Below, piece after piece: positions 52,211-56,709 of a DNA stretch of 64,000 nucleotides; within the stretch, counting starts at the first letter, position 1; each line of letters opens with the position of its first letter. Under the pieces are notes generated by a model, which ran no database searches, was not told where the DNA came from, and saw only the letters and a program-made list of their open reading frames with translations. Made by a program: the position numbers and the translations under genes. Location: assembly GCA_040388625.1 (NCBI GenBank), contig JAZKBK010000004.1, positions 372,001 to 436,000 of the forward strand, written 5' to 3'. Source of the DNA: Gemmatimonadota bacterium (GTDB taxonomy: Bacteria; Gemmatimonadota; Gemmatimonadetes; Gemmatimonadales; Gemmatimonadaceae).

Positions 52211-52591
52211 CTAGGCGCCCAGTTCCATGCGGACGTAATCGTAGGGAGGACGATCGTCTTCGCGTTGCTCTATGATGGCCATCGCCTCGTGCAACTTGGC
52301 GTAGTGAACATCGAGCCAGCGAGCCAGCACCACTTCATCGCGGAATATCGTCCCCGGTGGCGCGGGAACGATCGTGCCCTTCGCGCTGAACGCATCCACC
52401 ACGCGGACATAATCCGAAAGATCGGCATCACTGGGCTCGCTGCGAACGTACGGAGAAATCGCAACGACTGCAGCGAGATCGCGATACTTGACGAGCTGCA
52501 CATTCTGCTGCTCGAGCAGCGCCGGATCGCCCGCGTCGGTGTCGATCACGCCGTAGAAGCGCAGACCGGACTTGCCGCTGGCGCTAGCCAT
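52211..52591 (-). CDS. Orphan GvpF/GvpL-type domain protein
   Basis: The 126-residue product resembles only the N-terminal half of GvpF/GvpL gas-vesicle proteins. YGVIDTD near the start, YRDLAAVVA (compare RADVAALVT in the real GvpF/L at 63001-63783), AKGTIVPAPPGTIFRDE (compare DRGAVVPFSMWAMFSDE) and a following helix with LARWLDVHYAKLHEAM all align in order. The C-terminal half of the family is missing. It sits between a methyltransferase (8-base overlap) and a Ser/Thr kinase (no gap). The role is unknown; binding to a GvpA-like surface or a regulatory contact is possible. Confidence 0.75.
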   Translation of the reverse strand: MASASGKSGLRFYGVIDTDAGDPALLEQQNVQLVKYRDLAAVVAISPYVRSEPSDADLSDYVRVVDAFSAKGTIVPAPPGTIFRDEVVLARWLDVHYAKLHEAMAIIEQREDDRPPYDYVRMELGA

Positions 52592-53415: not shown

Positions 53416-54363
53416 CTATCCGGCTGGCGGCAGGCCGGCGAGTGCACGCATGTGAACAACCACCGCCTCAGCCAGTCGAAGCGGCGTGTAACCGCCTTCC
53501 AGCGCGCTCACGACCCTTCCCCCACAGGCAGCGTCTGCGCGGGCAGTAACAAATCGCGTCAGCCGATCTATATGCTCCATTTCCAGTGTAAAGCCACCGA
53601 TCGCGTCGCCCGCAAGACAGTCGAAACCAGCAGAGATGAGGATAAGCTCGGGCTGAAAATCGTCTGTTAGTGTGTCGAACGATCGTTCGAATGTCTCGAC
53701 ATACTGCATTGGATCGAGGCCGGCGGCCATGGGAGCGTTCAGCACGGTTCCGTGCGGCCCGTGATCGGACGCCGCGCCGGTGCCCGGATAGAATGGCCAC
53801 TGATGCATGGACAGAAACCGAATCGCCGGATCGTCCTGCACCAGCGCCTGGGTGCCGTTGCCATGATGGACGTCCCAGTCGACGATCAGGACGCGCTCGA
53901 GTCTGTGGACCTTGCGGGCGTAGTGCGCACCGAGCGCGACCGTTCCGAAGATGCAGAAACCCATCGCGCGGTCGCGGACTGCGTGGTGGCCGGGGGGGCG
54001 TATGCCGGAGAAGCTGCGGGTGGCGCGTCCATCCATCGCCATGTCGACCGCGTCGAGCACGCAGCCGGCAGCTGCAGTCGCCGCGTCCCATGAGCCCTCG
54101 CTGGCGACCGTGTCGATGTCGAGCCGTCCCCCGCCTGCGGCGCAGAGTGCGCGGACAGATTCGACATAGCCGCGCTCGTGTACGAGTGACAGCTCATCGA
54201 CGGTTGCGTGACGTCCTTCGACGTGCTCCAGTTGCTGGAACAGCTCGAAGTCGTTCCGCACCGCGCGCATGATCGCGACGAGGCGCCCGACGTGTTCCGG
54301 ATGTCCCCATCCGGTGTCGTGACGTCCGCAATCGGAGTGGGAGATGAACGCGGTGCGATGCAT
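53416..54363 (-). CDS. Histone-deacetylase-family (AcuC-like) amidohydrolase
   Basis: The 315-residue enzyme has the HDAC-fold signature: RPPGHHAVRDRAMGFCIFG (paired catalytic His), VDWDVHHGNGTQ (Asp and His zinc ligands) and ISAGFDCLAGD (Asp ligand), with ALEGGY before the C-terminus. Bacterial members deacetylate small molecules such as acetylpolyamines or acetoin-related compounds, or protein lysines. The gene is first of the methyltransferase/GvpF/L-like/kinase string and begins just after a REP-like palindrome that may insulate it. Confidence 0.9.
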   Translation of the reverse strand: MHRTAFISHSDCGRHDTGWGHPEHVGRLVAIMRAVRNDFELFQQLEHVEGRHATVDELSLVHERGYVESVRALCAAGGGRLDIDTVASEGSWDAATAAAGCVLDAVDMAMDGRATRSFSGIRPPGHHAVRDRAMGFCIFGTVALGAHYARKVHRLERVLIVDWDVHHGNGTQALVQDDPAIRFLSMHQWPFYPGTGAASDHGPHGTVLNAPMAAGLDPMQYVETFERSFDTLTDDFQPELILISAGFDCLAGDAIGGFTLEMEHIDRLTRFVTARADAACGGRVVSALEGGYTPLRLAEAVVVHMRALAGLPPAG

Positions 54364-54496: not shown

Positions 54497-54829
54497 CTAC
54501 GACCTTACCGGACGGCGCCTCCGGCGCGCGACCAACAACGTCGATCCGTCCAGCACTCCGGCTCTGGACAGCGAAATCGACTCGTCGAATATCTCGCAGC
54601 CGTTCAGCTTGACCGAGAACTCATCGGGGAACAGCGCGTCGGGGATGAGAGTGTTCAGCGCGTACATCTTGGCCGTGCGAATCGACTCCGAGGGGCGCGC
54701 GTCGATGCGGACAACGTCCCATACTTCCTGCGCCTGCACGCGGAAGCTGAGTACGTTACCGGCGGTGAGCTCTCCGATCGAAATCACACCGTCCCGCGCG
54801 CGCAACGAGTTCGCAAACGTCGCGCTCAT
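54497..54829 (-). CDS. Small protein with a ubiquitin-like (beta-grasp) fold
   Basis: The 110-residue product resembles ubiquitin across residues 35-102. VVRIDARPSESIRTAKMY matches the strand 2/helix start (V-x-P-S-x-T-I-x-x-V-K), and VKLNGCEIFDESISLSRAGV followed by DGSTLLVARR matches the second half (I-x-A-G-x-x-L-x-D-x-x-T-L-x-D-x-N-I plus the final beta strand). It ends in RRRRRPVRS, with no Gly-Gly tail. The ATG overlaps the stop of the unknown gene (ATGA). The repeat lies just downstream. A role as a carrier or binding adaptor is possible; it may also be a YukD/EsaB-like protein. Confidence 0.65.
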   Translation of the reverse strand: MSATFANSLRARDGVISIGELTAGNVLSFRVQAQEVWDVVRIDARPSESIRTAKMYALNTLIPDALFPDEFSVKLNGCEIFDESISLSRAGVLDGSTLLVARRRRRPVRS

Positions 54830-55161
54830 GCCGTCACCGTCGACGATTCGGGGAGTTCGAGGGGTATCGCCCCGACTCCTGGTGGATCGGCGGTCGGCAG
54901 CGAGGAAAGAAACCGCGCTACCTGTCCATCGAGCATGTAAGACGATCCCGATACAGCGGTGAGTCCGTCTTTCTGCATCACACCGATGACGAGCTCTTCG
55001 CCACCCATGCCTCGCATCGAAACGAACGTCGGTCCTTCCATGTCGAGGAAGGCGGTATAGATCGAATTGCGTCGCGAAAAGAAGTGCTTGGCTGCATCAA
55101 GCACCTCTGCCGGGGAGAGCGGAGTGAGCGTCTCCTGAAGAGTCCTGTCTGTCTGCGCCAT
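54826..55161 (-). CDS. Unknown protein coupled to the ubiquitin-like gene
   Basis: The 111-residue protein has a short helical start (about 15-30, SPAEVLDAAKHFFSRRNS), then beta strands in FLDMEGPTFVSMRGMGGEELVIGV and TAVSGSSYMLDGQVARFLSSL, ending in a Pro/Thr-rich tail. There is no catalytic motif or signal peptide. Its TGA overlaps the ATG of the ubiquitin-like gene, so the two are likely made in equal amount and may form a complex. I recognise no family. It follows the peptidase gene by 39 bases. Confidence 0.6.
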   Translation of the reverse strand: MAQTDRTLQETLTPLSPAEVLDAAKHFFSRRNSIYTAFLDMEGPTFVSMRGMGGEELVIGVMQKDGLTAVSGSSYMLDGQVARFLSSLPTADPPGVGAIPLELPESSTVTA

Positions 55162-55200: not shown

Positions 55201-56709
55201 TCAGGACTCCAGCAGCGACTCGATCTTTCGCGTGAGCGGGGCGAAGCTGATTTGACCGCCCGCAGCACGCCGTCCGACCTCGCTCGCGCTCTCGCGCTGC
55301 CCTTCGGCGAACAGCTCGGCGACTATCCAGGGCCCCGCCGCGGGATTGCGCCACCAGTCTTCATCGAACCGATCGACCAGTCCTTCATCCAGCAGCGACT
55401 GGAGTTGCCACGCGCGCAGATACCGCGTGGAATAGAAACGCGAATCGAGGTCGATGAACGCATCGGCCGGCCGATACTGGAATCCCGTCGCGGCGGCGAG
55501 TATCTCGACGTAGATGTCCGGTAGCGCTTTCCAGTCCACGGCACCGCTGTAGACCTGTATCTCGTAAAGCAGCTTCGCGCAGTAGCGCCTGACGAAATGC
55601 AATTCCTCGAAGCCTGCAAGTCGCAGGAAAGCCGCTGCGCGGTTTCTATCCAGGCCTGTGTAGCGTCGCAGCCACGCGCGCTGTTGCATCCGGTGATCGA
55701 ACAGCATTGCGTAGCTCTCGGTAACTGAATTGTCGCCAATCCAGCGATACTCGAACGGGTAATCCGCGCGCGTGTTTCCGAAATGGAGGGCGTGTCCGAG
55801 CTCGTGCAGAAAAGTGCCGTAGTCGGATTGTCCGCCGTGCGGGCGCAGCACGAGATACACCTCATCCGGAATGCGTACCGGTGAACAGAATGCGCGCGGT
55901 CGCTTGCCGGGACGATCGCCTATGTCAAACGTGATGCGTCCGGTGGCGGTCGCATCGAGGCCCAACTCCGCGCAATTGCGCCGGATGATGCTCTCCATGG
56001 CCGATTCGGGAAATGCATCGTCGAACTCGCGCAGCCTGAACAGCGCGAGCGAATCTGCCCGCGTCGCTTCGCCGCGCGGAACACCGAATGCCCTGAGCCG
56101 CTCGTCCAGCACCGAAGTCCACATCGCCTCGGTGTCGTGGAGGAAAGTCTCGCACTCTGCCGCGAGCCTGGTGAGCGATATGCCGCTCAGTGCCTCGAAC
56201 GTCGAGTTGTATCCGGCGGCAATGCCGAGGGACTCGACCGCATCGCGCTCGCGCTGAAGCCGCTCGAGTCGCAGCGGTGCGAATGACTCCTCGACAGTCC
56301 GCGCGCGCGCCGCATCGATCGCTCTCCGATCCGCCGCGTCGCCGCTGTTCGCAATGTCGATCGCCACGCGCTGGTATGGGATGACGCGCCCGTCGGCCAC
56401 TCGAATGACGGCGGCATGCTCGAGTGCGACTTCACGCTCGTCCAGCGCGGCAAGCTGCCGCCCGACGCGCGACTCCACCTGCCACTCGAGCATCATGCGT
56501 GCTGCTCGTGCGTCTTCCGAATCGGCCGGAGCACCACGAAATCGCTCGATGCACTCCGACAGAGCGTCCTCGCTCAGTATGTCGTCGTACCTCTCGTAGA
56601 TTGTCTGCAGCGCTGCTTCCGCCTTGAGACCCGAATAGGCGAGATAACTCTCGCGTGCGACATCCTGGGTGAACGATTGCGCGCGAGCCCGCAACCGTTC
56701 CAGGTTCAT
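55201..56709 (-). CDS. HExxH metallopeptidase, related to M3/carboxypeptidase-like oligopeptidases
   Basis: The 502-residue soluble protein is largely helical, with the zinc site FLHELGHALHFG at about residue 310 and a downstream Glu in SVTESYAMLFD as third ligand. The helical N-terminal half resembles the M3-type oligopeptidase fold. There is no signal peptide, so it acts inside the cell on short peptides. The start ATG overlaps the glycyl-tRNA synthetase TGA (ATGA). It precedes the unknown protein and the ubiquitin-like gene, and the three may belong to one operon. The exact peptidase family needs a profile search. Confidence 0.8.
   Translation of the reverse strand: MNLERLRARAQSFTQDVARESYLAYSGLKAEAALQTIYERYDDILSEDALSECIERFRGAPADSEDARAARMMLEWQVESRVGRQLAALDEREVALEHAAVIRVADGRVIPYQRVAIDIANSGDAADRRAIDAARARTVEESFAPLRLERLQRERDAVESLGIAAGYNSTFEALSGISLTRLAAECETFLHDTEAMWTSVLDERLRAFGVPRGEATRADSLALFRLREFDDAFPESAMESIIRRNCAELGLDATATGRITFDIGDRPGKRPRAFCSPVRIPDEVYLVLRPHGGQSDYGTFLHELGHALHFGNTRADYPFEYRWIGDNSVTESYAMLFDHRMQQRAWLRRYTGLDRNRAAAFLRLAGFEELHFVRRYCAKLLYEIQVYSGAVDWKALPDIYVEILAAATGFQYRPADAFIDLDSRFYSTRYLRAWQLQSLLDEGLVDRFDEDWWRNPAAGPWIVAELFAEGQRESASEVGRRAAGGQISFAPLTRKIESLLES

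Follow-up and report, generated by a model that had tools for sequence, protein, structure and literature searches.

A conserved gene pair of Gemmatimonadota encoding a predicted ubiquitin-fold protein with a non-glycine tail and a predicted helix-grip/KA1-like partner

Among described systems, RatA-RnfH of beta- and gamma-proteobacteria (also ratA-ratB/yfjF and pasT-pasI) resembles the gene pair analysed here in its layout: a START/SRPBCC-type gene, in our pair one for a predicted helix-grip/KA1-like protein, lies upstream, a glycine-less ubiquitin-like (UBL) gene lies downstream, and the two overlap. In E. coli, the START-type gene ratA comes first and overlaps yfjF (PMC1779556, PMC4131195); in strain K-12, we found this overlap to be 11 bp. 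RatA has since been described as a lipid chaperone of the Coq10 type, and its toxicity has been put down to an artefact, namely a wrong start codon (PMC11988751). A C-terminal tail is also the working end of the beta-grasp protein in MoaD-MoaE. The YukD/EsaB proteins are small and glycine-less, and have been reported as not conjugated (PMC1779556). Bil-type Ubl proteins and ubiquitin/ISG15, in contrast, have a conjugation tail and E1/E2/DUB genes, neither of which occurs at the pair described below.

We examined a 64,000-nucleotide stretch of Gemmatimonadota DNA (hereafter, the window), in which two small genes overlap on the minus strand. The upstream gene (positions 54826–55161) encodes a partner protein of 111 aa, with a conserved core of about 90 aa and a variable C-terminus, and the downstream gene (54497–54829) encodes a UBL protein of 110 aa, with a ubiquitin-like beta-grasp region, a short N-terminal extension (PFVxxLRxR), and an RRRRPVR tail; both assignments draw on the ORF, an AlphaFold2 model, and homologues. 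The stop codon of the partner and the start codon of the UBL share the tetranucleotide ATGA at 54826–54829 on the minus strand, so the overlap of a 110-residue and a 111-residue ORF reported in the original prediction is indeed present, and both ORFs scored as coding by codon usage. Translational coupling through this overlap would hold the partner and the UBL near a 1:1 ratio.

The UBL protein is predicted with high confidence to adopt the ubiquitin fold. Its single-chain AlphaFold2 model, built with 51 aligned homologues, had a mean pLDDT of 90 and the element order E E E H E E h E, and contained the beta-beta-alpha-beta-beta topology of the ubiquitin-fold superfamily. In a Foldseek search against the PDB, ubiquitin, ISG15, and bacterial Ubl chains ranked at the top (E of about 1e−5), and the bacterial Ubl-deubiquitinase complex 8tyx matched with a target-normalised TM of 0.83 and an rmsd of 1.5, so that Bil-type Ubl and ubiquitin/ISG15 were its best structural matches; VIA-align gave Z of about 11 and rmsd of 1.5–2 against SUMO, ISG15, and ubiquitin. 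The beta-grasp pattern first read from the sequence was therefore borne out by structure prediction and structural search, in which ubiquitin-family matches dominated. Pfam sees the family only weakly, through YukD, DUF2604, and UBL matches across its members. The closest Pfam family by score was YukD (PF08817), which matched 33 of 51 members weakly (best E 1.4e−5) and the window protein with 13.3 bits, below the gathering threshold of 27; EccD matched 14 of the 51. No member matched PF02597 (ThiS/MoaD), and a profile comparison of UBL with MoaD gave 1%; with sequence homology undetectable in this way, we rejected the idea that the UBL is a derived MoaD. It further differs from MoaD in lacking Gly-Gly, and the moaD-moaE-moaA genes of Gemmatimonadales are located elsewhere.

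For the partner, the single-chain AlphaFold2 model (pLDDT 85) showed the order beta-alpha-beta-beta-beta-beta-alpha at residues 8–87, followed by a disordered, variable C-terminus. Structural alignment gave Z of 9–10 with an rmsd of 2.3 against KA1 domains and Z of 7–10 against SRPBCC/Aha1/CoxG-type proteins (rmsd range 2.3–6 over KA1 and SRPBCC/Aha1), and Foldseek reached E of 1e−3 at best; a full SRPBCC domain would be larger than this protein. Because these scores are middling, we call the partner a predicted minimal helix-grip/KA1-like protein and assign it to neither the SRPBCC/START nor the KA1 family. Pfam and NCBIfam searches with the partner returned chance matches only and no family. 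The motif R-G-[QM]-G-G-E-E (residues 50–56; codons at 54994–55014, minus strand), which maps to the beta3-beta4 turn in the predicted structure, hardly varied in any of the Gemmatimonadales partners, even where no UBL is present. A search of PDB sequences with the partner profile hit the polyubiquitin junction (LRLRGG-MQIF against LRGQGGEE), which we judged to be a repeat-summed chance match because no single stretch passed alone.

Based on the fold predictions and the comparison with E. coli, the pair has the RatA-RnfH gene order, in which the UBL gene directly follows a gene of START or, as predicted here, helix-grip/KA1-like type. Nevertheless, PF03658 (Ub-RnfH) was not found in any of 61 genomes from the class, and hhalign comparisons of the UBL and the partner with RnfH and RatA gave 0.3% and 0.1%, respectively, that is, no profile-level homology, and RnfH membership was rejected on these grounds. 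RatA also has 158 aa, compared with about 90 aa in the partner, the UBL tail differs from that of RnfH, and no smpB neighbour was seen at the pair. Since sequence homology is not detectable, the pair is not counted as a member; by its architecture, RatA-RnfH appears to be the closest known analogue of a pair that is built alike.

Homologues of the UBL and of the partner were each found in 56 of 60 relatives. Both genes occurred together in 55 of the 60, and in all 55 they lay on the same contig, adjacent and on the same strand with the partner first; the 4-bp overlap was kept in 60 of 76 further loci holding both genes (gene calls in related loci were made with a simple codon-usage script). 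This adjacency and overlap indicate that the pairing is not due to chance, and the UBL–partner pair is ancient; the association suspected from a single genome thus recurs in others. In a profile search of 298 genomes of the phylum, the UBL was detected in 182, covering all three families of the order and, outside it, families f4 and f10 (f4, f8, and f10 label families outside Gemmatimonadales, and g13 labels a genus). Among the 80 loci kept from a genome-wide pattern scan with the partner profile, nearly all had Gemmatimonadota titles, a few were titled only "bacterium", and one had a Candidatus Kuenenia title; the named relatives recovered were nearly all Gemmatimonadota or Gemmatimonadaceae. 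MAG-based genomes of relatives are incomplete in places, so some gene absences may be assembly gaps. In genus g13, the UBL was absent from 8/8 sampled genomes and the partner was retained; six of its loci (L146, L147, L151, L160, L214, and L215) showed a clean UBL gap, with the partner 350 bp closer to the HDAC gene and RGQGGEE intact. This means that the motif is not maintained by UBL binding only, and that the partner has some UBL-independent role rather than acting as a toxin for which the UBL would be the required antidote. Searching the literature for a Gemmatimonadota ubiquitin-like protein brought up no account of this system, and the partner family has no Pfam or NCBIfam entry.

The C-terminus RRRRPVR is the most conserved part of the UBL. 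Across 119 distinct UBLs from Gemmatimonadales, the seven C-terminal columns (residues 103–109 here; codons at 54503–54523, minus strand) had a mean entropy of 0.62 bits, compared with 1.85 bits for the whole protein, and 110 of the 119 stopped exactly at the conserved last position, the remaining 9, including the window protein, extending one residue beyond it. These tails (type I) end in PV followed by R, K, E, S, Q, or H, and none of the 119 sequences ended in the glycine, usually Gly-Gly, of conjugated modifiers. The original prediction had noted the missing Gly-Gly in the window tail RRRRRPVRS, which holds across these 119 sequences, but it undervalued how strongly this segment is conserved. 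Other positions vary while R, P, V, and the end point are kept, which suggests that a specific C-terminal peptide, and not bulk charge, is what is recognised.

Outside the order, in f4 and f10, the pair was again adjacent with the partner upstream, and the flanks lacked purA, glyS, HDAC, and priA. The adjacency is therefore not merely frozen synteny, and the pair has moved or been re-placed as a unit. The UBL of these families (type II) was homologous to type I over the fold (profile comparison 98.7%, E 1.8e−16) but not over the tail, which is a different fixed sequence, RxYDLxHxxxFxG (e.g., YDLGHYPRFEG), with a single invariant terminal Gly. At some f4 loci (L209, L210, and L212), an E1-like gene lay near the type II pair, at 2–3 kb, and L212 also had a JAMM-like gene within a few kb; this arrangement was not conserved in f10. 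A second partner paralog was found in f4, f8, and f10, directly upstream of moaD-moaE(-moaA) and after an HU-like gene (L203, L204, and L216–L232). The three partner groups were mutually homologous (97.7–99.7% in profile comparisons) and, in a tree with an arbitrary root and few columns, the MoaD-linked and Gemmatimonadales partners stood apart from the long-branch type II partners. The Gemmatimonadales carA-HU-moaD-moaE-moaA-mdh locus had no partner gene (L233, L235, L236, L238–L240, and L242), so MoaD needs none there. With one paralog upstream of moaD and another member upstream of the UBL, the partner family repeatedly precedes ubiquitin-like genes and, mainly because the two beta-grasp families that it precedes are unrelated in sequence, it appears to be specialised for beta-grasp proteins as such.

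The immediate surroundings of the pair in Gemmatimonadales varied. A GAF/histidine-kinase-like gene lay immediately upstream in 65 of 99 loci; it is missing beside the pair of the window. This GAF and histidine-kinase-like protein (e.g., L214:6009–7331) has degenerate ATP-binding motifs. Directly downstream of the pair, 53 of 96 loci had an HDAC-like gene, and in the window it encodes a class II-type histone deacetylase-like protein (53416–54363, minus strand; PF00850, E = 1.7e−83), which we regard as associated and do not claim as a member of the pair. When evolutionary rates were compared with glyS removed, the UBL–partner correlation was 0.44, compared with 0.32 and 0.34 for the correlations with HDAC (n = 32); with both glyS and priA removed, it was 0.28, compared with −0.04 and 0.07 (n = 19). 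The mirror-tree signal within the pair is thus weakly above the HDAC controls and only suggestive.

The nearly invariant tail and the constant partner suggest a dedicated two-protein docking module. We lean, with slightly better than even confidence, towards a non-covalent module of UBL and partner in which the UBL tail is the docking peptide. The upstream gene would supply the small helix-grip/KA1-like protein and the downstream gene the ubiquitin-fold protein, which would not be a conjugated modifier; its fixed-length tail, with a free -PVR carboxylate, would dock on the partner or on some third component brought in via the pair. The high-confidence predicted UBL fold, the conserved and coupled pairing, the conservation of the tail and its two types, and the partner next to moaD are results of the analysis; we infer physical binding between the two proteins, the docking role of the tail, and any role in signalling, to which the GAF/histidine-kinase-like neighbour upstream in approximately two-thirds of loci might point. 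The original suggestion of a binding adaptor or a new small beta-grasp system holds up in this form, with the pair found to be conserved, the fold predicted, and the binding put forward as probable. More tentatively, and with more doubt than conviction, the partners may constitute a family of beta-grasp-tail receptors, paired separately with MoaD and with two non-conjugable UBL tail types, such that the non-glycine -RRxPVR peptide would be the read-out of a ubiquitin-fold signalling module and not an attachment point. If true, the pair would be a nearly universal core module, without a name so far, of a major soil and freshwater phylum, using the ubiquitin fold without conjugation; an invariant non-glycine tail and a partner family beside two unrelated beta-grasp families would provide a sharp test of how UBL tails are read outside conjugation.

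It is also conceivable, although unlikely, that the two proteins share an operon or pathway without binding each other, in which case the UBL would act with another component, such as the GAF/histidine-kinase-like sensor or a target on the ribosome or membrane, and the partner would bind ligands independently. That one genus has kept the partner but lost the UBL, and that sensor-like and HDAC neighbours are frequent, would fit such an arrangement; however, in other orders the pair stays together without those neighbours, and partner paralogs also adjoin moaD. The small, coupled genes and the architecture shared with ratA-ratB recall the toxin–antitoxin pair once proposed for RatA-RatB, but the genes here are single-copy, chromosomal, and near-universal, the reading is weakened by the genus g13, which as a whole has the partner without the UBL, and the toxicity of RatA is itself the reported start-codon artefact (PMC11988751), which makes a toxin–antitoxin role highly improbable. 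The reading in which the peptidase encoded upstream trims the tail of a UBL precursor fared worst. As originally noted, a peptidase gene does lie just upstream, 39 bp away and outside the pair (55201–56709, minus strand), and encodes a divergent M3-like metallopeptidase with a HELGH motif (M3_fam_3, E = 6e−7; Pfam match of 17.7 bits against a cut-off of 27, below all family cut-offs), and the window UBL runs one residue past the usual end. However, of 99 related loci, just one, from a member of the window's own genus, has the peptidase next to the pair, and elsewhere it travels with glyS across the order, with other genes between glyS-peptidase and the pair. Most UBL genes already stop at the conserved residue and so leave no extra residues to be removed; with this fixed end and the missing linkage, peptidase processing was rejected and its probability is close to negligible.

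A conjugation or sulfur-carrier system, in which an E1 would adenylate the UBL for attachment to a target or for carriage of sulfur, is very unlikely, in line with the doubt voiced originally. Speaking for it are the ubiquitin fold, the presence of ThiF-type E1 genes in this genome, including one within the window itself, and, for type II, the invariant terminal glycine and the f4 E1-like gene 2–3 kb away. On the other side, type I lacks a terminal glycine throughout, no E1, E2, JAMM, or other deconjugase gene was found beside the pair in Gemmatimonadales, the E1-like genes lying elsewhere in the genome, and the same genomes have separate ThiS/MoaD proteins. The weak YukD and EccD matches might instead point to type VII secretion, with the UBL as a component resembling YukD/EsaB; in contrast to such a component, however, the UBL has no secretion genes around the pair, a dedicated partner, and an invariant tail, and the window protein scores below the YukD threshold. 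A search for WXG100 (PF06013) was positive in the B. subtilis control but in none of 21 genomes from the order, and this absence led us to reject a type VII component as extremely improbable.

Other genes of the window are recorded as minor observations. About 52 kb from the UBL, at 1480–2685, lies a gene for an E1-like protein of the MoeB/ThiF type whose C-terminal region is rhodanese-like. At 52211–52591, with no other gas-vesicle gene noted nearby, a GvpL/F-like gene encodes 126 aa that cover positions 5–111 of the 245 of the Pfam model, its first half; its relatives are often longer.
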